Shown here piece after piece: positions 25,877 through 46,147 of a DNA stretch of 64,000 nt. The DNA comes from Streptomyces platensis (GTDB taxonomy: Bacteria; Actinomycetota; Actinomycetes; Streptomycetales; Streptomycetaceae), in the NCBI RefSeq assembly GCF_008704855.1, contig NZ_CP023691.1, forward strand, positions 5,518,001-5,582,000, given 5' to 3'. The position numbers and the translations under genes are program-made. The notes under the pieces are model-generated. The model ran no database searches and was not told where the DNA came from. It was given only the letters and a program-made list of their open reading frames with translations. The stretch's first letter is position 1; each line of letters starts with the position of its first letter.

Positions 25877-27148
25877 GTGAGTGAGCGCGGAGGAAATGGG
25901 CGCGGCGGGCCGTCGCCGTCGGCCGGTGAACTGGTCGGGCAGGTGCTCGGCAGCGTCCGTTACGCGCCGGACGGCGAGCGGGCCGAGGACGCCATCGAGG
26001 CGGGCGCCTCGATGCTGGCGGCGGCCGAGGCCGGCTGGGCGGCGGTGAGCGCGGCGGTGGTCGAGGCCGCCGTGGCGGGCGTACGGCAGTGCTGGGCGGG
26101 CGGCTGGCACCCCGCCGACCTGGCACGGATCGTACGGCGGGAGGCCTTTGACACCGCACTCGTGGCGCTGGTCGTGGACGCCATCGCGGCCGAGGCGGCC
26201 CGGGCGGCCGCCCGCCCGGCTCCGGACCCGCGCTGGGCCGAGCAGCTGCGGCACCTCGGCGCCGAGGTCTGGTGGCCCGCCGACACCGGCTACCTCGACG
26301 CGCTGGCCACCCGCCGCCGCGCCTCCCGCTTCGAGACCGCCTACGACGTGCTGGCCGCGCTGCGCCTCCTCGCCCGGCTGCCCCGGATCACCCCGCTGCC
26401 GGCCCCGCCGCAGCCCGGCACCAGGAGCGGGCCCGCCGGTGACGCCGCGGCACGGGCCCTCGGGCGGATCCGCGGTCTGCTCGCCAAGGCGGAGGCGACC
26501 GACTACGCCGAGGAGGCCGAGGCGCTGTCCGCCAAGGCACAGGAGCTGATGGCCCGGCACAGCATCGACGAGGCGCTCCTCGACCGCGCGGACGGCTCCC
26601 CGGGCGGCCGGACCGACGGCCCGTCAGCGGTCCGTATCGGCATCGAGGGCCCCTACGAACAGGCCAAGGCGCTGCTGCTCGACGCGGTCGCGGCCGCCAA
26701 CCGCTGCCAGGCCGTCTGGGCCGCCGACGTCGGCTTCTCCACCCTCATCGGCTTCGCACCCGACCTGGAGGCGGCCGAGATGCTCTACACCTCGCTGCTG
26801 CTCCAGGCCACCGCCGCGATGAACCGCGCGGGCGACGCCGTCCACGCCCGCGGCCGCTCCCGCCGCACCCGGGACTTCCGCCAGACCTTCCTCGTCGCCT
26901 ACGCCGACCGCATCCGCGACCGGCTCGCGGTGGCCACCGCCGACGCCACGGCCGCCGCCACCGCCGAGTCCGCCCCCACGGCCCCCGACCTCCTCCCGGT
27001 CCTCGCCGCCCGCGCCCTCGCCGTCGAGGAGACCACCGGCGCCCTCTTCCCCGACACCGCCCCGGTCCGCCTCCGCGGCGTCCGCGACGCCGACGGCTGG
27101 CACCAGGGCAGAGCGGCGGCCGACCGGGCCAGGCTGGGGGAGGGGTGA
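25877..27148 (+). CDS. DUF2786-domain protein
   Basis: 423 residues. The DUF2786 core is near the middle: RIRGLLAKAEATDYAEEAEALSAKAQELMARHSID. It is flanked by an Ala-rich helical N-terminal region and a C-terminal domain containing FLVAYADRIRDRLAVA. No membrane segment. The function of DUF2786 is unknown; it also occurs in phage and in metal-peptidase-like proteins (SprT-like context). GTG at 25877 has TACAGT at 25865-25870, 6 nt upstream (leaderless type). It is convergent with the AraC gene. Confidence 0.82.
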   Translation: MSERGGNGRGGPSPSAGELVGQVLGSVRYAPDGERAEDAIEAGASMLAAAEAGWAAVSAAVVEAAVAGVRQCWAGGWHPADLARIVRREAFDTALVALVVDAIAAEAARAAARPAPDPRWAEQLRHLGAEVWWPADTGYLDALATRRRASRFETAYDVLAALRLLARLPRITPLPAPPQPGTRSGPAGDAAARALGRIRGLLAKAEATDYAEEAEALSAKAQELMARHSIDEALLDRADGSPGGRTDGPSAVRIGIEGPYEQAKALLLDAVAAANRCQAVWAADVGFSTLIGFAPDLEAAEMLYTSLLLQATAAMNRAGDAVHARGRSRRTRDFRQTFLVAYADRIRDRLAVATADATAAATAESAPTAPDLLPVLAARALAVEETTGALFPDTAPVRLRGVRDADGWHQGRAAADRARLGEG

Positions 27149-27200
27149 CCTCACGGGCGACGGCGGGCACGGCAGCGGGCACGCTCCGCGCCGTCCGCCG

Positions 27201-28070
27201 TCACGGGGCGAAGTACGCGCCCGGCGGCACCCCGACCGCCCGCCGGAAGGCCGCGACGAAGGCACTCGGGGAGGCATAGCCCACCCGCGCCGCCACCGCC
27301 GCCACCGTCGCGCCCCCGGCCAGCAGCGGCATCGCCGCCTGGAGCCGGATCCGGGTGCGCCACTGCCCGTACGGCATACCGGTGTCCGCCACGAACGCCC
27401 GCGCCAGCGTCCGGCCGCTCGCGCCCACCCGGGGGCCCCACTCCGCCAGCGTCCGCCCGTCCGACGGGTCGGCGCGCAGCGCCTCCGCGACCCGGCGCGC
27501 CCGGGGATCGCGCGGCATCGGCGCCTGCACCGTGGCCACCGACACCGGCCGCAGCTGATCGAGGACCACGGCCTCGGCCCGTTCGCGCGGCGCCGGGTCC
27601 AGCGTCCCGTCCGACAGATACGAGATCAGCTCGCGCAGCAGCGGTGAGACGCCGACGACGGTGGGCGCGGACCAGCCGACCGGGCAGCGGTCCGGCAGGA
27701 AGTACAGGCTCCGGAAGAGCGCCTGGCCCGCGGCGCCGGTGGCGTGCGGGGTTCCGGCGGGAATCCACAGCGCTACGGACGGCGGCAGCACCCAGGTGTT
27801 GCCGGTGGCCCGTACGGCCAGAACTCCCCGCCGCGCCCAGGCCAGTTGGTGGTGCTCATGGCGATGGCGGGCGAACCACTGCCCCCGGTCCATCGTGAAG
27901 CTCCCGACGACGACCGCCGCCCCCGCGGGCGGCCCCGGCGGCGCCACCTGACCGTCCGCCGCCTCGCGCCCGGCCGGCTGCGCCACCCTGCCCAACCCCG
28001 CGCTCCCGTCCGGCTGTTCACCGCTGTCCGTCCTGCGATACAACATGTCCCCCTGTCGCGTGGTGGTCAC
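27201..28070 (-). CDS. AraC-family transcriptional regulator
   Basis: 289 residues. The N-terminal cupin-like sensor (WFARHRHEHHQLAWARRGVLAV, LPPSVALWIPAGTPH) is followed by a C-terminal AraC double helix-turn-helix (WGPRVGASGRTLARAFVADTG and VAARVGYASPSAFVAAFRRAVGVPPGAYF). The His-rich RHRHEHHQ segment may bind metal. GTG at 28070 is preceded by GGGAG; ATG at 28046 is an alternative. It is tightly divergent from a methyltransferase gene, 25 bp away, so it probably controls that gene. Confidence 0.88.
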   Translation of the reverse strand: MTTTRQGDMLYRRTDSGEQPDGSAGLGRVAQPAGREAADGQVAPPGPPAGAAVVVGSFTMDRGQWFARHRHEHHQLAWARRGVLAVRATGNTWVLPPSVALWIPAGTPHATGAAGQALFRSLYFLPDRCPVGWSAPTVVGVSPLLRELISYLSDGTLDPAPRERAEAVVLDQLRPVSVATVQAPMPRDPRARRVAEALRADPSDGRTLAEWGPRVGASGRTLARAFVADTGMPYGQWRTRIRLQAAMPLLAGGATVAAVAARVGYASPSAFVAAFRRAVGVPPGAYFAP

Positions 28071-37513: not shown

Positions 37514-38005
37514 TCAGGACGCGCGGTGAAAGCGGCGATGCAGTTCCCGCACCTGCTCCGCCAGGCCGGGAACCGGGCCCTCCACCACGAGGCCGGGAAC
37601 GACGTCACGGATCGGGAGGGCGCGCACGGGAGGAGCCGGAACCTCCAACTCAATGCGCCAGGCCGTCAGTTGCTCGGAGGAGCTCACGTACACGATGCGC
37701 CCCAGCCCGGCCCAGCCGTGCGCGGCGGCGCACATCGGGCAGTGCTCACCGGAGGTGTAGACGGTCGCCGCCGCCCGTTCCTCGGGTGACATGTTCGCCG
37801 CGGCCCAGCGCGCCAGCTCGAATTCCGGGTGGCGGGTCCGGTCGCCCGAGGCCACCCGGTTGCGCTCCTCGGCGAGCACGCTCCCGTCCCCGCCGACGAG
37901 CACGGAGCCGAACGGTTCGTCGCCCGCCTCCAGCGCCTCGGTTGCCAGCTCCACACAGCGGCGCAGGTGCCGCAGTTCAGTCTCGTTCACGACGATGCTC
38001 CCCAC
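37514..38005 (-). CDS. Cytidine/deoxycytidylate-fold nucleoside deaminase
   Basis: 163 residues. Zinc-dependent deaminase motifs: HPEFELARWA (the [HC]xE motif; Pro replaces the more usual Ala) and TSGEHCPMCAAAHGW (CxxC zinc ligands, with His in place of the usual Pro before the first Cys). Related to guanine deaminase and tRNA adenosine deaminase families, but too divergent to assign a substrate. GTG at 38005 or 37990, both with reasonable ribosome sites. It lies 137 bp downstream of the macrolide glycosyltransferase on the same strand. Confidence 0.82.
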   Translation of the reverse strand: MGSIVVNETELRHLRRCVELATEALEAGDEPFGSVLVGGDGSVLAEERNRVASGDRTRHPEFELARWAAANMSPEERAAATVYTSGEHCPMCAAAHGWAGLGRIVYVSSSEQLTAWRIELEVPAPPVRALPIRDVVPGLVVEGPVPGLAEQVRELHRRFHRAS

Positions 38006-38142
38006 ACGCGGTCTCCGGGGATGCTAAGCCTTCGCGCGCCCTCGACATGCCCGGAACGTCACCGTGCGGGCCCCGTCAACTGACGCGGTTGGCCGATGCC
38101 GCTTCGCCGCCGACCGTTCGGCCTGCCCCGCCAGCCGGTGAC

Positions 38143-39375
38143 TCACTCCACGGGCGGGTTTCCGCACTCCACGGGCAGCTCGGCCTCGATGAGGTCGGCC
38201 GCCCGCTGGGTGCCGCCCTCACCGGCCATCTCCCGCTGGATGGCTGCAAGGCGCCGCGCCACCTCCGGGTCGTCGACGAGCGAGAGCACCGCCTCGCGCA
38301 GGGTGTCGGCATCCGCCTCATCCATCGGCACATGGCGTGCCACCCCGAGCCCCTGAAGCATGTCCGCGTTACCGAACTGGTCGACGGCCTGCGGAACGGC
38401 CACCATGGGCGTGCCGGTGGCCAGACCCTCCTGGCTGCCCCCCGCCCCGGCATGCGTAATGAACGCATCGGCCTTCCTCAGGATCGCCAACTGCGGCACC
38501 CACTCCCGCACTTCCACGTTCCCAGGAACCTCCCCCAGCTCCTCGGCCGCGACATGCTTGCCCACCTGAAGCACGACATGCCAGCCCGGCAGATCACCGA
38601 ACGCCTTGACGCACTCGCGGTAAAAACCGGGCTGCTTGGTGAAGGACGAGCCAAGCGAAACCAGCAGCACACGCTCGGCACCCACGGGCCGCTCCCAGTC
38701 CCCCTGCGCCGCCCGCTCCCCCTGGCAGGCGCCAACAAACGAGTGGACCTTCCCATCCACCCGCTCGGCATGCGGCTGTAGCGCCTTCGGGATGAGCACG
38801 ATCGAACGCCCGGGCCGCCCGACGAACGGGTCGGGATGCTGCGAAATCCCGTTCTCCGAAAGCCAGTTGCTGAACTTCTCGTAGTACGCACGCCCCCGCT
38901 CGGTCTCCCTCGGCTCCGCCCACATCGGCTCGGCGACCTCCTCCTCATACCCCTCCCACGCCACGAGGTTCGGCGAGAGCGAGACCGCCGGCACCCCCCA
39001 GCGATGGGCAAGCACACGCGCCGGGTACGAGGTGATGTCATGCAGCACAAGATCCGGCTCATCCCCGCGATAAGCCTCGATGAGCTGCGGCAGCACCTGA
39101 ATCGCGTCATCCAGAAACGGCTCGACATTGTCGAGGAGCGTGCTCCCCCACGCCGACGGATCGTCATCCGGCGACGGCAACGTCGTCCGATACAGCACGG
39201 GCTCCGCCCCGGTCTCGGCAACCTTCTCCGCAAAAACCTCCGGAATCGCATACGTAACCCGGTGCCCCCGGGCAACAAGCTCCCGAATCACTTCAAGACT
39301 CGGGTTCACGTGCCCGTGGGCGGCGATGGAGAACATGGCGATATGAGCATGCTTGGGGTGTTCCGGGCTCGTCAT
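38143..39375 (-). CDS. mgt: Macrolide glycosyltransferase (OleD/MGT type)
   Basis: 410 residues, GT1 family. By recollection it is closely collinear with S. antibioticus Ole[21 protein letters not shown] (catalytic His20), [20 protein letters not shown] (activating Asp), [36 protein letters not shown], and the UDP-sugar motif [28 protein letters not shown] with [13 protein letters not shown]. OleD-type enzymes add glucose from UDP-glucose to macrolides and inactivate them, a self-protection or resistance role. ATG at 39375 sits 6 nt from TAGTGT, a leaderless promoter with a TetR-type operator between -35 and -10. No rRNA methyltransferase or polyketide genes are nearby. Confidence 0.93.
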
Positions 39376-39381
39376 GCCGCC

Positions 39382-39411
39382 ACACTAAACGAGACGATAC
39401 GTCTCGTGCAA
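39382..39411 (-). promoter_or_regulatory. mgt promoter with TetR-type operator in the spacer
   Basis: Reading the minus strand: -35 TTGCAC (39411-39406), 18-bp spacer, -10 TAGTGT (39387-39382), then 6 nt to the ATG. The perfect dyad ACGAGAC-GATAC-GTCTCGT (39389-39407) fills the spacer. A bound repressor would block RNA polymerase. No regulator gene is directly adjacent. Confidence 0.75.
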
Positions 39412-39724
39412 TCAATTTCCGGTCGCCGCTCCCTGCCGCGAGGGCTGCGCGACGGACAGCTCATGACGGATCTGGTGGAACGCTGATGCCGAACGGGACG
39501 CGGGGGCACCCCGGCGGAGCGAAGGCAGGTCCACAGACTGCCCGACGCGCCGGAAGCTTACGGGGCCATGATCACTCGCCCCAAAGCAGCTCCAGCCCAA
39601 AGCCGCTCCGCCGACCGTTCGTGAGGCTTGCCCCGAAACCAGGTCATGGTCGCGAGTGGGAGGGGCGTCACTCTGAAGGCGCAACCTGACGTGCGTGAAG
39701 CCTCCTTCGCGCCATCGTGGAAAC
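39412..39724. other. Non-coding region upstream of foreign-type membrane gene
   Basis: About 310 bp without a supported gene, between the mgt promoter and the membrane protein start. A divergent regulator would be expected here but none is intact. A short open stretch ending near 39486 is unrecognisable. Confidence 0.45.
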
Positions 39725-41065
39725 ATGACGACCCTGCCTGTGATTGGGCAAGCACAACCCGATGACAAATTGTCGAGAAGATGGCTACTGCTGATCTGGG
39801 GAGTGTTGATTCTCGCCGCCGCAGAATTTGCGTGGCTAGGATCAGCAGACTTCAATGGCGCCCTAAGCTACGCCGGACGCCTAGATGGCGCTCTCTTGCT
39901 CCTGTCGGCGGCCGTTGTAATCGTCGCCGCCCTAGCACTGCTGGACCACAAGAACCCACTAAACGCCAGAAAACACAAGTACTCTGGCTACTGGGTGGCG
40001 ATTGGAGTATTTCTTTCTTTTATCGTCAACCTGGGGCTACTCATCCTACAAATTGAGAGCATTAGCCTCACTGAATTCATCCCGAGCCTCACCGGCTTCA
40101 TCCTGCTTTGGATGGGCCTCACAGCGGCAGCATCTGCATGCCTTTTCAGGCTTTACCGCCAACATAAGAGCGAGGCGCTCAAAACGCCAAAATATAAAAC
40201 ATTCACCCTCGGTGCGGTTATCACCACTTTGATCGGAGTTGGCACCTTCGCATACACGCAGGTGTATCAACCGTACACGACCCCCGCCCTAGTGGTCACG
40301 ACGATTGATCTGGGGCGAGCAAAAGTTAAAGACGGAACGGTAACCGTGCCAATCCACCTGAAGACCAAGAATATCGGTCAGGTTGGCGTATTCGTGCTCG
40401 GCTCGCTATATCAGGTTTCCGCCAGAGGGCCTATCTATAGCCAAGTCGCCCGCTCAGACAAAGAATGGCTCCAGGATCTTAACGATGGCCAATCTTCTCT
40501 ACTTCGATACGGGAATGAAAAAGGTCATAAGTATAACCTCCTGGCAGAAGGCCTGTTCGTACGCCAAGGGCGCAAGCTCGAGCCAGGATCAGAGGCTACG
40601 TCAGATACCATTGTGCAATTCCCGGTCAGCAATTCCTATGATGTACTTGATGCCACGAGTGATGTGGTGTTCCTGCGGGCAGACAGGGCGGTACTCACCA
40701 GTGACGAATACCGCCAGTCCGGGCGAAGCTCATGGCATAAAGACAAGAGTCACGCCGAGAATCTTACGGCACCAGCCTGGGTGGCAAAGGGAAAAACCGA
40801 AGCATTCCGGTACAAGTCAAGGATCATCCACAGCAGTGCCGTTCTCGAATATACGCGAAGCAATAGAGAGGTGTCCGTTTGGTGGGTTCTCGAAGAGCCA
40901 AGCAAGTCCTGGAATGGCCCCTACCTAGTGGCCAGTATCGCCCCAGAAGGCGAGGGGTCCCAAACACCTGATCCCGGCTCGGCGCAACGGCTCACCGATG
41001 AATACGGTTTGGATCACTCGTCAAGCGGCAGGATGCAAAAGACTATGCAGCAGCTCATAAATTAG
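39725..41065 (+). CDS. Hypothetical five-helix membrane protein, atypical composition
   Basis: 446 residues. Five predicted helices at about 20-38, 54-73, 89-109, 119-141 and 161-180, then about 265 extracytoplasmic residues of mixed strand/helix with no motif I recognise (ALVVTTIDLGRAKVKDG, FVLGSLYQVSARG, VSVWWVLEEPSKSWNGPYL). Base and codon use differ strongly from neighbours: CTA, AGA, GTA, AAA and AAT are common, and the whole gene is visibly AT-richer. ATG at 39725; the frame extends to 39695. Lack of host codon bias suggests recent acquisition. Function unknown; topology suits an envelope sensor or surface protein. Confidence 0.72.
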   Translation: MTTLPVIGQAQPDDKLSRRWLLLIWGVLILAAAEFAWLGSADFNGALSYAGRLDGALLLLSAAVVIVAALALLDHKNPLNARKHKYSGYWVAIGVFLSFIVNLGLLILQIESISLTEFIPSLTGFILLWMGLTAAASACLFRLYRQHKSEALKTPKYKTFTLGAVITTLIGVGTFAYTQVYQPYTTPALVVTTIDLGRAKVKDGTVTVPIHLKTKNIGQVGVFVLGSLYQVSARGPIYSQVARSDKEWLQDLNDGQSSLLRYGNEKGHKYNLLAEGLFVRQGRKLEPGSEATSDTIVQFPVSNSYDVLDATSDVVFLRADRAVLTSDEYRQSGRSSWHKDKSHAENLTAPAWVAKGKTEAFRYKSRIIHSSAVLEYTRSNREVSVWWVLEEPSKSWNGPYLVASIAPEGEGSQTPDPGSAQRLTDEYGLDHSSSGRMQKTMQQLIN

Positions 41066-41576
41066 ACTCCGGAGCGGCGCGTCCCCAGGAACGATCCTGT
41101 TTTAGGTCGCCAGACGCCGCCAATTGAAACTGTCAATTGTGGGGCGCTTGCCGTTACGGAGCTGGGGTGCATGTTCCGGTCTTTCCTGACAGCCGCTGTG
41201 GCCGGTCCCTTCGGTGCTGCGGTGTTCACGTGGCTCTGTCGCCCACGGCAGTGACGGCAGCGCTGACGGCAACGACCGCGGACGGCGGCGGCACTCGGGA
41301 ACCCAGAATGGCTCAGATGCAGTGTCATCGGACTGCCCCACCGCGGCTTGCCCGCATCTTCTAAGCGCCCGGCCTGGGCCGTCCCTGGGCCGTCCGAGGC
41401 CGACCAACGTCGACAGACGCCGCCCACGGGTGGCCACCCCCCACCCCGCTCTGGCCTGGGCAGCCGGAGTTGATCTGCGACACTGGAAGGGTTATGCCTG
41501 CACCCGTCCAACTTACTTTTGGACAATGAGGGCCTCGCCAGAAGGCATCAGACCCGAGTCGCAAGCGATTGCCAAA
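41066..41576. other. Intergenic, about 510 bp, between convergent membrane genes
   Basis: Short frames on both strands look like shadows with no family features. A tandem 11-bp duplication CTGGGCCGTCC lies at 41374-41384 and 41385-41395. No tRNA, att-like repeat or transposase remnant is seen. Confidence 0.5.
41374..41395. repeat. 11-bp tandem duplication
   Basis: Two exact adjacent copies of CTGGGCCGTCC in a gene-free stretch. Confidence 0.75.
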
Positions 41577-42521
41577 CTACGGGCCGGGCTTGAAAAACTC
41601 GGCCAGCGGCAAGTACCGATGCCAGTGACGCCCGAACAACACCAGCAGCGCCAGGATGCCGACAGCGGCAACCATCACAACCGCAGGCATGTCCGGGAGG
41701 CCCAACAGGGACACAACGACAGCCGAGCCAGCAATAAGAGTGACCGCGGTCCCGATCCGCAGCAACTCGCGGTCGCGGACTGGTTCGAACGTCGTCAGTG
41801 TGGCTGGCGAAAGCAACGCACCAACATGGCCGGAAACGTAGTTCTCTGTGATTGTGACAATCAGTCCTGCCAGCTCTTCCAGCGCCTGGGCCTGATCACT
41901 TCCGTCCAGGCGGGATTCAGCGGCGCGCAGTCTGGCCACTACCTGACCAGCATGCCGACGTAGCTCCGCGCGCCGCGGAGACAGGTGCGGAACTGTTCTG
42001 CGTGTGCGGTACGCCCGCAGGACAATCCTTTCCAGGCTTCTCAGGGAACCAGACAGAGCACGCAAACGACCCGTGCGACGTTCACCCCCCGCGCCGTATG
42101 CCTCCGCGCACGCTTTGATGGTCTCGATGCACTGCATCACTAGTCGGCATCGGTTGGCAGCTAGGTGTGTGTCTCTGGTCACGGCAGCCGTTGAAGCGAT
42201 TAGTAACGTCCACGCAATGAACTCGATGGCCGCCCGCAAGGGAACGTATTGCGCTTCCGTGGTGAAGCCCCAGTACAGGTAAATGGCAGCCGTGCCAGCT
42301 CCGAGCGCCAATGCCTCTGCATAGAGGAGCGCGCCAAGACTCGTTCCACTGATCTGACGTATGGCGGCGCGTAGGGAAAGCGGCACGGGCCACCAGTCGT
42401 AGCCGAGCCGGTCCAATGCCGTTCGCAGTTCCGATATGCGTTTGTCAGACGCGCGCCGTACACGTACCCGCCGCCGGCGCCGGATGAAGCCCGCAATGGT
42501 CATGAATGGTGAGGATGCCAC
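41577..42521 (-). CDS. Hypothetical four-helix membrane protein
   Basis: 314 residues. Basic N-terminus (GFIRRRRRVRVRRASDKR), helices at about 62-83 and 96-115, a long charged helical cytoplasmic segment (116-255), then helices at 257-275 and 280-297. The 2 + cytosolic + 2 layout with a large helical middle resembles no family I can name. Codons 106 and 107 are TTA and CTA; TTA implies dependence on the bldA tRNA and so expression late in growth. GTG at 42521 or ATG at 42503. It faces the foreign-type membrane gene. Confidence 0.65.
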   Translation of the reverse strand: MASSPFMTIAGFIRRRRRVRVRRASDKRISELRTALDRLGYDWWPVPLSLRAAIRQISGTSLGALLYAEALALGAGTAAIYLYWGFTTEAQYVPLRAAIEFIAWTLLIASTAAVTRDTHLAANRCRLVMQCIETIKACAEAYGAGGERRTGRLRALSGSLRSLERIVLRAYRTRRTVPHLSPRRAELRRHAGQVVARLRAAESRLDGSDQAQALEELAGLIVTITENYVSGHVGALLSPATLTTFEPVRDRELLRIGTAVTLIAGSAVVVSLLGLPDMPAVVMVAAVGILALLVLFGRHWHRYLPLAEFFKPGP

Positions 42522-43111
42522 AGATAGGGCCGGAGACAGCGGCCGTAACGGCGCTATCGGCCAGAGCTACAAGCTGGCAGGCCCTGCACCACAACCGCAC
42601 TAGATCGAGCGGGGAGCAGCGGAGAATCACGGTGAGCAGCAGAGCCCGAAGGGGTTGTAGAGCTGCCACACACCCATGTCAGCACCCAACTCGCTCCAGA
42701 CGTCCGCAGCTTCGCAAGCTGAGGGCTTCAGCAGCACACGGAGGCTCTGTGCTCTTGTAACGGTTCGGCTGGCAGGCTGCTCTGGCCGACGCCAAAGGTC
42801 AGTAGCGTGGCTGAGGCTGGTGGGGGTGCAGCGAGGCATACGCGTGCCTGATCGGTCGGCACATCCTCCGTCGTGGCTGACTGTCGTCGGCTGAGGTTCA
42901 GGCGGGCAGCTAACCAAGCCGTGCCAGATGCGCGCCAGAACAGAGGGGCAATCGTGGTCAACGAGGGTGCTGAACAGCCCCTGCACCCATAGTGAGGCCG
43001 GTGTTAGCCGCCCGCCTACTGACCAGCACATGCACCGCGCAGATCACCACCAGGCTTACAAAGCAGCGATTGTGAAGGCGGTGCACAGCCGCATCAGCAG
43101 CTTCGCGAACC
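42522..43111. other. Gene-poor region, about 590 bp
   Basis: No frame shows family motifs or host-type codon bias across its length. Composition is somewhat less GC-rich than core genes. It may be decayed coding sequence, but no specific ancestor is recognisable. Confidence 0.45.
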
Positions 43112-43408
43112 CTAAGCGCCAGCCTTGCGCCACCTGAGCGCGTCTTCTCGCGCTGCGTTGGCCAGAGCTAGCGCAGCCTGCACGGGAAGCGACAGCCGGA
43201 GTACCCCCGAACCATCCGTTGTTGTCGATGCCGTCGACATGACCTCGGTTGTGTCGATGCCCGCCTCATCCATGGCTCCCTTCAGCTCAGTCGCAGCGTC
43301 CACTGCGCTCCGCCAGCCGGCCACGTAGTCCACGCCGCGTACCCACATCCAGCCGTCCGGTTCCAGAGCCTCGTCGTTGAAGTTCGGGTCCATCGGATCG
43401 TGCTGCAC
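43112..43408 (-). CDS. Small hypothetical protein
   Basis: 98 residues, start MQHDPMDPNFNDEALEPDGW. Acidic, with an Ala-rich C-terminal half (LPVQAALALANAAREDALRW). No signal peptide or membrane helix. GTG at 43408 has GGGAG about 9 nt upstream; ATG 43393 is an alternative. Not recognised. It lies in the accessory stretch, co-oriented with the two small genes to its right, but a terminator hairpin intervenes. Confidence 0.55.
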   Translation of the reverse strand: MQHDPMDPNFNDEALEPDGWMWVRGVDYVAGWRSAVDAATELKGAMDEAGIDTTEVMSTASTTTDGSGVLRLSLPVQAALALANAAREDALRWRKAGA

Positions 43409-43521
43409 AGAACGTCACTCCCAGGAGCAGTAGTTGATTGCCTGGGGATGTCCACCCGCCGGTCAACGGGCATGACACCGGCCCCAGTACCCTCGGCACC
43501 GGGGTCCGCGAGGGCTCCTGG

Positions 43522-43562
43522 CCGGACCACCCCGGATGCTGTCCAGGCGAGGGGTGGTCCGG
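43522..43562 (-). terminator. Terminator after DUF7848 gene
   Basis: CCGGACCACCCC (43522-43533) pairs with GGGGTGGTCCGG (43551-43562), a perfect 12-bp stem with a 17-nt loop. Downstream of the minus-strand gene ending at 43668. Confidence 0.65.
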
Positions 43563-43667
43563 TCTCACATGTCTTGGGTCAGCCGTTGTCAGGGGTGCTG
43601 ATGACGACAAGCGGCATGACTGTCGCCGCCCAGAAGACCACGATCAGAACGCTGAATAATCTCTGTC

Positions 43668-43913
43668 TCACAGGCACTCACCGTCCGTCGGTGTCATGCG
43701 CCAGAACCGTGTGACGGTCTCGCGGTACCCGCGGTGCGACGGGTGCTGGCCGGTGTGAGAGAAGGCCCAGTTGCGTGTCGTCTCGAATTCTTCCGAGGGG
43801 TCTGCCGCGGAGTCGCAGGACATGCACTCCAACTCGTGCACCATCTCGGGAGCCTCCGGAGCGGACTCCGGTCCCATCGTCCATCTGAGGTAGCGAAAGA
43901 CGGACCTGGTCAC
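43668..43913 (-). CDS. DUF7848-type small protein
   Basis: 81 residues. The pattern RYLRWTMGPES...PEMVHELECMSCDSAAD...FETTRNWAFSHTGQHPSHRGYRETVTRFWRM is the repeated Streptomyces family I know as DUF7848. The CxxC in ECMSC and conserved His residues hint at a zinc site. Function unknown; usually found beside XRE regulators and small genes. GTG at 43913 overlaps the upstream stop by 4 bp (GTGA), so the two are translationally coupled. Confidence 0.78.
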   Translation of the reverse strand: MTRSVFRYLRWTMGPESAPEAPEMVHELECMSCDSAADPSEEFETTRNWAFSHTGQHPSHRGYRETVTRFWRMTPTDGECL

Positions 43914-44134
43914 AGCCCACTCCTGCTGTGAGCGTTGAGTTGTGCCACTCGTGAGCTCAGATCGTCACAGGAGCCGAGTGCGCGTAGATCCTCCGGACGT
44001 GCGCCCCATTCGATCCCGCCTTGTGGTGGACGCAGTTGTACGTGCGACCACATGACGTCCATGACCCGGCCGACCCGGCCGCTCCTGGTGTCCAGCGTCA
44101 AAGTGCCCACCGCAGGGGCGTTCTTGTCGCTCAT
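43910..44134 (-). CDS. Small hypothetical protein, partner of DUF7848 gene
   Basis: 74 residues, starting MSDKNAPAVGTLTLDTRSGR, with VGRVMDVMWSHVQLRPPQGGIEWGARPEDLRAL. This reads as an SH3-like beta-barrel, a type common in Streptomyces accessory regions. ATG at 44134 has no clear ribosome site. Its stop overlaps the next gene start (GTGA). It diverges from the XRE regulator across the 119-bp repeat-rich promoter, so that regulator probably controls it too. Confidence 0.7.
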   Translation of the reverse strand: MSDKNAPAVGTLTLDTRSGRVGRVMDVMWSHVQLRPPQGGIEWGARPEDLRALGSCDDLSSRVAQLNAHSRSGL

Positions 44135-44175
44135 GCAAGGAGGATCACGGTGATTCCCAGGACGTAGGAACCTCG

Positions 44176-44231
44176 CCCAAAACCCATTTTGGGACGTCCC
44201 AGAGGAGGTAGAACGTCCCTAGCAACGTCCC
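44176..44231. promoter_or_regulatory. Operator cluster in divergent XRE promoter
   Basis: The perfect dyad CCCAAAACCCATTTTGGG (44176-44193) is followed directly by three ACGTCCC direct repeats at 44194-44200, 44213-44219 and 44225-44231. The first lies in the palindrome GGGACGTCCC (44191-44200). It sits between the small-gene operon and the XRE gene and is the likely autoregulatory site. Confidence 0.6.
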
Positions 44232-44253
44232 AACTTCCAGGGAGAGACTGCGG

Positions 44254-44997
44254 ATGCCGAACGAGAGGCTTCGAGCCGCCATGGCAGCCGGAGGGTGGAC
44301 CCATGCCACCCTCGCAGCCAGGGCTCAGGTGGACCCCAAGTCCGTTGAGCGGTGGGTCAACTTGGGCCGGACCCCTCGCCGGGCGACGGCCCTGCTGGCG
44401 GCTGAGACGTTAGGAGAAGACGTGCATGCACTTTGGCCGGCGCTCAGGCAAGCACGCTCTGCCCGCGCTGTGAGCTCTGAGCTGGTCGCGTTGTACGACC
44501 AGCGGGCGGACGTTCCCGTGTCCACGTACACGGACATGCTGGCGGAGGCCCGCGAGACCATTGACGTACTCGTCTACGCGGCGGTCTTCCTGCATGAGGG
44601 GTTTCCCCGTCTGAATGAACTGTTTCGTGAGCGCGCTGCCGAAGGGTGCTCGGTACGCATCGCGCTGGGCGATGCGGAGAGCGAGAACGTGCGGCAGCGC
44701 GGGGAGGAAGAACGGTTCGGGCACGGCATCGAGTCGCGTTGTCGTCTCGCCGTCATGCACTATCGGCCGCTCCTCGGCGTACCGGGAATCGAGATCCGAA
44801 CTCACGGAACCACGCTGTACAACTCCATCTATAGGGCGGACGATCAGCTCCTGGCCAATGCCCATGTCTGGGGCGTGAACGCCTACGCAGCACCCGTATG
44901 GCACCTTCGCCGCTGCGAGGCCGGTGGAGTCTTCGACACCTACGTCCAGAGCTTCGACGCGGTCTGGACGACGGCGAAGCCCGTACCCGAGGAGTGA
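44254..44997 (+). CDS. XRE-family regulator with DUF5919-like domain
   Basis: 247 residues. N-terminal helix-turn-helix: LRAAMAAGGWTHATLAARAQVDPKSVERWVNLGRTPRRATA. The C-terminal half (about 85-240: DMLAEARETIDVLVYAAVFLHEGFPRLNELFRERAAEGCSVRIALGD, later THGTTLYNSIYRADDQLLANAHVWG) has the layout of phospholipase-D-like DUF5919 domains. Codon 53 is TTA (44410-44412), making expression bldA-dependent. ATG at 44254 follows GGGAGAG. It is immediately followed by a NUDIX gene with no spacing beyond the ribosome site, a frequent Streptomyces cassette. Confidence 0.85.
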   Translation: MPNERLRAAMAAGGWTHATLAARAQVDPKSVERWVNLGRTPRRATALLAAETLGEDVHALWPALRQARSARAVSSELVALYDQRADVPVSTYTDMLAEARETIDVLVYAAVFLHEGFPRLNELFRERAAEGCSVRIALGDAESENVRQRGEEERFGHGIESRCRLAVMHYRPLLGVPGIEIRTHGTTLYNSIYRADDQLLANAHVWGVNAYAAPVWHLRRCEAGGVFDTYVQSFDAVWTTAKPVPEE

Positions 44998-45000
44998 ACC

Positions 45001-45471
45001 CTGTCGCGTACCGAGTATTACGACGATCCCGATGCCCCCGAGCCCAACAGTCTCGTTGTTGCTGCTTCAGCTGTGGTGACCGACGACGAGGGCCGCATCC
45101 TGCTCCAGCGGCGCCGGGACAACGACCTCTGGGCCCTGCCCGGCGGCGGCATGGAGATGACCGACTCCCTTCCCGGTGCCGCGGTCCGGGAGGTCAAGGA
45201 GGAGACGGGGCTTGATGTGGAGATCACGGGACTGGTCGGGACGTACACCGATCCCCGTCACGTGATCGCCTACACGGACGGGGAGGTGCGGCGGCAGTTC
45301 AACGTGTGCTTCACGGCGCGGGTGGTCGGGGGGCAGCTTGCCATCTCGGATGAGTCCACGGATCTGCGGTTCATCCACCCCGACGAGATGAGCGATCTCC
45401 CGATGCACCACACGCAGCAGCTCCGTCTCCAGCACTTTCTGGAGTGTCGGAAGCGCCCGTACCTGGGCTGA
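45001..45471 (+). CDS. NUDIX hydrolase, probable CTG start
   Basis: 156 residues if started at CTG 45001. The conserved N-terminus SRTEYYDDPDAPEPNSLVVA is encoded upstream of the first standard start (GTG 45073), and the codon before it in frame is the XRE stop region (TGA 44995-44997). The only credible start is therefore CTG, with a perfect GAGGAG (44989-44994) six bases upstream. NUDIX box: GGGMEMTDSLPGAAVREVKEETGLDV matches GX5EX7REUXEEXGU, with Thr/Asp-rich filling. It hydrolyses a nucleoside diphosphate derivative. The ribosome site lies inside the XRE end, so the two genes are coupled. Confidence 0.8.
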   Translation: MSRTEYYDDPDAPEPNSLVVAASAVVTDDEGRILLQRRRDNDLWALPGGGMEMTDSLPGAAVREVKEETGLDVEITGLVGTYTDPRHVIAYTDGEVRRQFNVCFTARVVGGQLAISDESTDLRFIHPDEMSDLPMHHTQQLRLQHFLECRKRPYLG

Positions 45472-45481
45472 TGCTCCCGAG

Positions 45482-46147
45482 TTAGTCCCCGGCCGGAGCC
45501 ACCCCCACCGGGCAGCTCACGCCCGTCCCCCCGATCCCGCAGTACCCCGTCGGGTTCTTGTCCAGGTACTGCTGGTGATAGCCCTCCGCCGGGTAGAACG
45601 GGCGGCCGGTGGCGGGGAGGATTTCTGTGGTGATGTCGCTGTGGCCGGCGTTGTGGAGGACGGTGCGGTAGGCGTCGCGGGAGGATTCGGCGGCTTGTTG
45701 CTGGGTGGGGGAGTGGGTGTAGATGGCGGAGCGGTACTGGGTGCCTGTGTCGTTGCCCTGGCGGAAGCCCTGGGTGGGGTCGTGGGACTCCCAGAAGAGC
45801 TTCAGGAGGGTCGTGTACGGGACGACCTTGGGGTCGTAGACGACGCGGACGGCCTCGGTGTGGCCGGTGTGGCCGCTACAGACCTCTTCGTAGGTGGGGT
45901 TCGGGGTGTGGCCGCCCTGGTAGCCGACGAGGGTGGTCCAGACGCCCTCGGTCTGCCAGAACTTCCGCTCGGCGCCCCAGAAGCAGCCCAGCCCGAAGTC
46001 GGCGATCTCCAAGCCGTCCGGGTACGGGCCGAGCAGCGGGTTGCCGAGGACGGTGTGCCGGTCGGGGACGGTGAAGGCCCGCTCGGGGCGGCCTTCCAGC
46101 GCCTCCTCCGGGGTGGGGAGCTGGTTCTTGAAGCGGGAGAACAGCAC
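45482..46147 (-). CDS. msrA: Peptide methionine-S-sulfoxide reductase
   Basis: 221 residues. Active-site loop [15 protein letters not shown] with the nucleophile Cys at about 55, then [31 protein letters not shown], and a C-terminal recycling Cys in [14 protein letters not shown]. The N-terminal extension [14 protein letters not shown] is typical of long actinobacterial MsrA. It repairs Met-(S)-sulfoxide in the cytoplasm. GTG at 46147 with AGGAG nine bases upstream. A run of G-tracts lies just upstream. Convergent with NUDIX, 10 bp apart. Confidence 0.95.

Follow-up and report, generated by a model that had tools for sequence, protein, structure and literature searches.

A regulator-NUDIX gene pair on the Streptomyces platensis chromosome, its conserved candidate operator and its relatives on integrative conjugative elements

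The locus described here lies in a stretch of 64,000 nucleotides (the window) of the Streptomyces platensis chromosome, a single contig of 8.50 Mb. On the plus strand, a gene for an XRE-type regulator of 247 amino acids (REG, 44254-44997) is followed, 3 bp past its stop codon, by a gene for a NUDIX hydrolase (45001-45471) with a probable CTG start; GAGGAG at 44989-44994, on the same strand within the 3' end of REG, reads as the likely ribosome-binding site of the second gene. On the minus strand, a gene for a protein of 74 amino acids (S74, 43910-44134; match to phrog_15135, E 1.4e-6) overlaps by 4 bp a gene for a DUF7848 protein (43668-43913; PF25232, 99.1 bits). The two sides are separated by a divergent operator and promoter region of 119 bp (44135-44253). 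This gene layout agrees with the original prediction, which had described a regulator, a coupled NUDIX gene and overlapping divergent small genes around a shared promoter. A tblastn search and a gene order that recurs in the same genome indicate that the divergent side probably holds a third gene as well (S98, 43112-43408, minus strand).

The downstream gene encodes a Nudix hydrolase, scoring 74.8 bits with the Pfam NUDIX model against a cut-off of 21.1. The core REUXEEXGU is present as REVKEETGL, and the Nudix box is found in 80 of the 81 loci scanned, the Gx5E position being Asp in 74 of these 80. Judged from the aligned sequences, translation most likely starts at CTG 45001: this codon is ATG or GTG in 71 or more of the 79 rows and CTG in three, namely the window (45001-45003), the S. 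lydicus locus L033 and L036. The alternative start GTG 45073 is disfavoured because it would remove a conserved N-terminus. Nudix enzymes act on very diverse substrates, and the relatives of this one in the PDB favour no single substrate. PADLOC returns one candidate model, PDC-S07 (3.4e-11), a match that may reflect merely the Nudix domain.

REG joins a CI/Cro-type helix-turn-helix (HTH, residues 1-65) to a pseudo-phospholipase-D domain (residues about 75-244). It had been labelled XRE(DUF5919), of which the XRE part stands. The Pfam scores, 20.8 bits for HTH_3 and 18.7 bits (E 0.0016) for DUF5919 (PF19319), are both under cut-off, the curated value for the latter being 23.5 bits. Among 30 aligned members of the REG family, 17 match DUF5919 at E<=0.01 (best 8.6e-8) and 11 match PLDc_2; by these sequence scores DUF5919 is a distant relation of REG and, under the Pfam rule, not a family to which it belongs. 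The literature searched yielded no paper on DUF5919. An AlphaFold2 model of REG built from 38 sequences (pLDDT 89.5) superseded an earlier one (pLDDT 73.5) that had given no structural match at E<=0.001. In the newer model the C-terminal domain has the alpha/beta fold of phospholipase D (Z 14-14.7), as expected from the description of REG as a PLD-like regulator. VIA-align places residues 75-244 with NucT (Z 14.7), TrmBL2 (14.5), FAM83B (14.1) and TrmB (14.0), whose ranks are tied by its rule, and then Nuc (13.1); the NucT and Nuc alignments span 138-140 residues. Foldseek matches the model to TrmBL2 with E 8.4e-8. The catalytic HxKxxxxD (HKD) motif is absent from 81 orthologs and from sets of 30 and 38 aligned homologues, and S191, D196, H204, G139, D140 and R149 are near-invariant in the family. 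Given that the HKD motif is missing while other residues are conserved, the modelled domain is probably a sensor or binding site, a pseudo-enzyme rather than an enzyme. The archaeal regulators TrmB and TrmBL2 likewise combine a DNA-binding domain with a PLD-like domain, yet identity is 9-15% and the HTH of REG resembles instead the P22 c2 repressor (VIA-align Z 10.8 for residues 1-65). TrmB is a sugar-binding regulator, and we know of no Nudix partner of TrmB or TrmBL2. PADLOC gives REG a marginal RmrA match (0.0098).

Two elements of the 119-bp region had been put forward as operator parts, three ACGTCCC repeats and an AAAA/TTTT palindrome, CCCAAAACCCATTTTGGG (44176-44193). The repeats are present as direct plus-strand copies at 44194, 44213-44219 and 44225-44231, the last 12 bp beyond the previous one, and a fourth copy on the minus strand (44191-44197) forms with the first a perfect central palindrome, GGGACGTCCC (44191-44200). 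Since the window holds no excess of ACGTCCC (16 seen, 18 expected), counting is no proof of an operator, and conservation was used instead. Aligned without gaps, 77 of the 81 upstream regions give the footprint GGACG..GGAACCtCc..CaAaccCCAcTtcGGGACGTCCcgc..cggGTAgAACGTCCCTaGtgcCGTCC, capitals marking positions at least 90% conserved; two of the four regions outside it lack the palindrome and two are below full length. The footprint contains an almost invariant CGTCC half-site facing S74 (minus strand, 44160-44164, GGACG on the plus strand), the conserved plus-strand element GGAACC (44167-44172), the direct repeats at 44213 and 44225, and GTAgAAC, which includes TAGAAC at 44209-44214 (plus strand), a tentative -10 element of REG. 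The -10 assignment is tentative because a consensus scan recognised no sigma-70 consensus promoter.

Within 90 nt upstream of REG, the palindrome core GGACGTCC occurs in 78 and a paired CGTCC in 68 of the 80 orthologs (best 80 of 539), the latter against 0.74 expected from first-order Markov shuffles, which also gave the other expected values for CGTCC in this paragraph. Of 29 diverged homologues, 26 were aligned and are 31-48% identical to REG; 14 of the 29 have a paired CGTCC upstream, with 0.09 expected, and 25 have at least one, with 6.4 expected. By eye, CGTCC repeats also precede the start in several viral homologues with identity of about 30%. Conservation across orthologs and diverged homologues thus supports the repeats as an operator motif, and by this measure they are an old, conserved one of the REG family. 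The AAAA/TTTT palindrome was discarded as an operator part, as just 2 of the 81 upstream regions preserve it. The composite operator pattern has a single occurrence in the 8.5-Mb genome, and the reversed control has none. Read for geometry, the minus-strand copies (44160/44192) and the outer plus-strand copies (44195/44226) form pairs, each about three helical turns apart.

The second line of evidence is gene linkage. Among the best 80 of 539 orthologous loci (75-95% identity), REG is immediately followed by NUDIX in 79, and in the remaining one the contig ends 143 bp past the match. By tblastn over the same best 80 of 539, S74 is divergent from REG in at least 56 loci and a DUF7848 gene is found in at least 30, at least 29 of these within 1.2 kb of REG; both counts are lower bounds because tblastn misses small diverged proteins and three loci have less than 900 bp upstream. 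Co-occurrence of the four genes, the check proposed with the original prediction, is seen in 27 of these 80 loci, and on these searches the small divergent genes are less constant partners than NUDIX. In 8 of the 80 loci S98 has a match upstream of REG, seven of these loci having msrA as a neighbour. What survives of the reading as one cassette is the REG-NUDIX linkage, a regulator-specific operator motif, a PLD-like sensor fold and the recurrence of TTA codons in the regulator, without the AAAA/TTTT palindrome.

With the paralogous REG of the same genome as query, matches were found in 69 of 296 genomes of the class. Among the matches listed, 51 of 75 long REG matches have a NUDIX match directly downstream and 24 have none there at E<=1e-20, ten of the 24 lying within 5 kb of a NUDIX match at eight double-REG loci. 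The 75 include one (G256:C65) with no NUDIX on its contig; the weakest NUDIX rows were omitted from the pairing, and none of them adjoins an unmatched REG. At viral loci, 15 of 16 show no NUDIX match in the stretch covered. Together, these loci suggest that REG can probably work without the enzyme. The REG homologue of phage Alderaan (HQ601_00037, at 26622-27353 of the phage; locus L112) belongs to the same two-domain family at 30% identity but has no annotated NUDIX nearby; the next gene annotated downstream of it, at a distance of about 700 bp, is Cro-like, suggesting that the homologue occupies the position of a lysogeny repressor.

Other arrangements were seen by reading individual loci. 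At two loci outside the genus (L178 and L179), two REG homologues flank NUDIX and HD-like genes; L179 has a GntR-like gene too, and its second REG has a stop and is followed by an adenine-methylase-like gene. The S. platensis genome itself, near 2.727 Mb (L176), holds a second set of small protein, DUF7848 and S98-like genes, with an ATPase-like gene on one side and a GntR-like reading frame on the other; it seems that these three small genes move together, independently of REG. A row of NUDIX, GntR and HD genes on the Thermoactinomyces plasmid pTvu19 (L114, Bacillota), with a NUDIX 49% identical to that of the window, indicates that this set reaches beyond actinomycetes.

Where do such cassettes reside? 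Around the 80 loci stand genes for tyrosine integrase, replication initiator, TraB/FtsK, DUF2637 and GntR proteins, in the order of actinomycete integrative conjugative elements (AICEs); the names were assigned by sequence reading, supported by the annotated locus L113, and S74-REG-NUDIX occupies the int-distal end of the AICEs. Flanks of 8 kb or more on the left and 3 kb or more on the right are available for 66 loci, of which 11 have all three of Int, Rep and TraB, 8 have two, 3 have one and 44 have none; at least two are thus present in 19, and none of six element markers is seen in 40. Att-like repeats lie on both sides of the cassette in 24 of 80 loci. In 12 of them the repeat is a 44-bp tRNA-Arg end, whose nearest right copy falls 1.6-8.9 kb past the start of REG; the other 12 have a 23-bp repeat, which there follows NUDIX at about 0.1 kb. 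The 20-base core of the 23-bp repeat is found, with up to one mismatch, in at least 135 of 246 genomes of the genus. An 18-kb circular plasmid (NZ_CP107792.1) carries int, FtsK and primase genes together with GntR-HD facing NUDIX-XRE, an arrangement that recurs in the S. platensis genome at 2.578 Mb; a further REG-NUDIX pair lies near 5.488 Mb. On this evidence of gene order and repeats, relatives of the cassette belong to AICEs. The 23-bp direct repeat, at about +1338 from REG in L042, L059, L071, L074 and others, marks another integration site of AICEs; for the four loci named, ARAGORN reported no tRNA.

The window copy differs from these relatives. No int, rep or tra genes lie around it, and a search for att repeats found neither the 44-bp nor the 23-bp type, so that AICE cargo describes the relatives and not this copy. 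Seven orthologous loci among the 80 have msrA as a neighbour, and together with the window these seven make up one clade of eight (SH-aLRT 90, unstarred), from which we conclude that the window copy was probably inherited with the chromosome. It is a chromosomal offshoot beside msrA, outside any element. In the S. lydicus relative (L033), TraB-like, c9 and GntR genes lie 6-9 kb upstream. Selective retention of the cassette during element decay was considered and dropped: the loci were found via REG, which builds retention into the sample. Early stops in two of the 80 REG orthologs (L090 at 126 and L110 at 57 amino acids, both retained in the counts), REG fragments in several genomes (for example G016, G174 and G178) and paired att sites within 20 kb of each other in genomes lacking any REG match (G211, G114, G134, G112, G050 and G056, by eye among the matches listed) indicate that the cassette is not kept preferentially.

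A pair of this kind is already in print. Ghinet et al. 2011 (PMC3218068) described an AICE gene cluster, mdp-nud-xre, in which an XRE regulator and a Nudix hydrolase form a unit, and adjacent xre and nud genes are what we find here. Compared with that paper's description rather than its sequences, the diverged relatives look like the published cluster, since the HD-bearing copies on NZ_CP107792.1 and in the S. platensis genome have REG and NUDIX of the window's families. Neither the AICE membership of the relatives nor this likeness was part of the original prediction. The window differs from mdp-nud-xre in standing outside any element and, like the 80 orthologous loci, in having no HD (mdp) gene, the divergent S74-DUF7848 genes being often present instead. 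Tblastn with two HD proteins of diverged cassettes gave a best E of 0.038 in the window and nothing at or below 1e-8 in the 80 loci, so the window and these loci form an HD-less branch. An HTH-Nudix gene of Streptomyces ICE01 (PMC9513070) similarly brings both functions to a conjugative element and is likened to cI repressors; as far as that description goes, it is one gene rather than two, with data not shown. The cassette is, on present evidence, a variant of a known AICE gene pair and not a new kind of system. As available to us, the account in PMC3218068 presents the xre-nud genes of actinomycete elements without a mechanism, and the operator, the PLD fold and the TTA pattern discussed below are features of the present cassette that do not appear in it. 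What the present analysis adds is a candidate regulator-operator pair conserved over a bacterial class and a structural reason to expect a small ligand, with natural variants on hand as complete elements, remnants and a chromosomal lineage.

We propose an autoregulated sensor-hydrolase cassette, derived from AICEs and now a chromosomal resident beside msrA, and give this account an even chance of being right. REG would be a CI-like repressor whose HTH binds CGTCC(C) half-sites; the conservation of the motif is computed, and binding and repression are the proposal built on it. The half-sites cover the start region of the REG-NUDIX operon and would reach toward the divergent S74-DUF7848-S98 genes. 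A motif placed over the likely start region of REG suggests autorepression, and REG would repress itself and probably the divergent genes too; repression rather than activation is an assumption, given that no consensus promoter was found. A phospholipase-D fold devoid of catalytic HKD residues should bind a small ligand, presumably phosphorylated or of nucleotide type, as TrmB binds sugar, and binding would release or re-set the operator. The co-translated NUDIX would then end the response by hydrolysing this ligand or a compound in equilibrium with it. In AICEs the cassette would act as a local switch at the int-distal end, probably for element maintenance or exclusion. Elsewhere across the 80 loci (1.48 Mb), 38 paired CGTCCC/CGTCC sites were found, and they mark no second fixed element promoter. 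This favours maintenance or exclusion over control of transfer genes, and it is also why REG as master repressor of the element was discarded; the only recurrent paired site in the loci with element markers (L042, L059, L074, L080) lies inside an apparent Rep coding sequence.

A bolder extension, which we consider doubtful, would make REG the type member of a broad repressor family spread over mobile elements (AICEs, plasmids, actinophages) and their chromosomal descendants. In this family a pseudo-PLD domain would replace the protease-type switch of CI and read a nucleotide-like signal, which Nudix enzymes (in relatives also HD enzymes) would erase, giving conjugative elements a ligand-based, SOS-independent decision switch with its own conserved CGTCCC operator code.

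Is the enzyme rather than the regulator the purpose of the pair? NUDIX could be a Pif-like factor of conjugal immunity that excludes related elements or another copy of the same one, with REG only setting its level. Pif of the AICE pSAM2, credited to Possoz et al. 2003, is an AICE-borne protein with a Nudix domain that confers conjugal immunity by blocking redundant transfer, and Nudix genes are frequent on AICEs; Pif is known to us by description (PMC3218068, PMC9513070), and PMC3218068, as available, gives it without an explained mechanism. The position of the cassette within AICEs, distal to int and in one kind directly before the att-like repeat, would suit such a role. The many chromosomal cassettes free of elements, 40 of the 66 loci counted above, do not, and we regard immunity as a rather unlikely primary function. 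Should the ligand of the sensor-hydrolase cassette be found, it would reveal which signal the elements monitor and what the Nudix enzyme contributes, perhaps including the unexplained conjugal immunity of pSAM2.

Another reading of the enzyme is nucleotide housecleaning, in which NUDIX would clear away damaged or unwanted nucleotides as plasmid-like replication proceeds, with REG as its repressor, responsive to the substrate. The box left intact in all but one of the loci scanned is consistent with it, and so are the HD phosphohydrolase and GntR regulator genes that accompany NUDIX in diverged relatives. HD homologues are lacking in the window and the 80 loci at the values given above, MutT-type models score far under their cut-offs on NUDIX, and the chromosomal copy persists with no replicating element to serve, which together make this role unlikely.

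The original prediction had read the locus as a developmentally timed, nucleotide-sensing module, the regulator being delayed by bldA through a TTA codon; on such a reading the module would have a host role in differentiation. REG does have this hallmark of bldA-dependent genes, a single TTA at codon 53 (44410-44412, plus strand), kept in 6 of 7 msrA-context relatives. Across the best 80 of 539 orthologs, 40 have a TTA in REG, at codons 6, 53, 47, 43 or 37. Among Leu codons, REG has 42 TTA in 1792 and the flanking ORFs have 119 in 37817. NUDIX has 0 in 1140, a count in which two of the 79 rows were placed at an odd distance; a stricter count gives 0 in 1024. Parsimony on a quick protein tree assigns 15, 5, 2, 1 and 1 changes to the five positions, counts that are rough because 40 of 78 inner branches are weakly supported. 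A single inheritance does not account for the TTA excess in REG. Against a developmental delay stand the other 40 orthologs, which have no TTA, and the use of the codon CTA as well (125 in REG, 53 in NUDIX), and we judge such timing improbable. Least probable is that REG and the small divergent genes make up a toxin-antitoxin or addiction set lending stability to the element. The small genes overlap, the context is mobile and the operator looks autoregulatory, but tblastn finds no S74 in 24 and no DUF7848 gene in 50 of the 80 loci (small diverged proteins may escape it), and REG survives as fragments in several genomes.

The cassette has one further neighbourhood feature. In 2-kb windows over 38000-46000 the G+C content is 58-66%, against 68-79% elsewhere in the window, and genes with no clear family lie in this stretch at 39695-41065 and 41577-42521; the stretch is perhaps further imported DNA beside the cassette.
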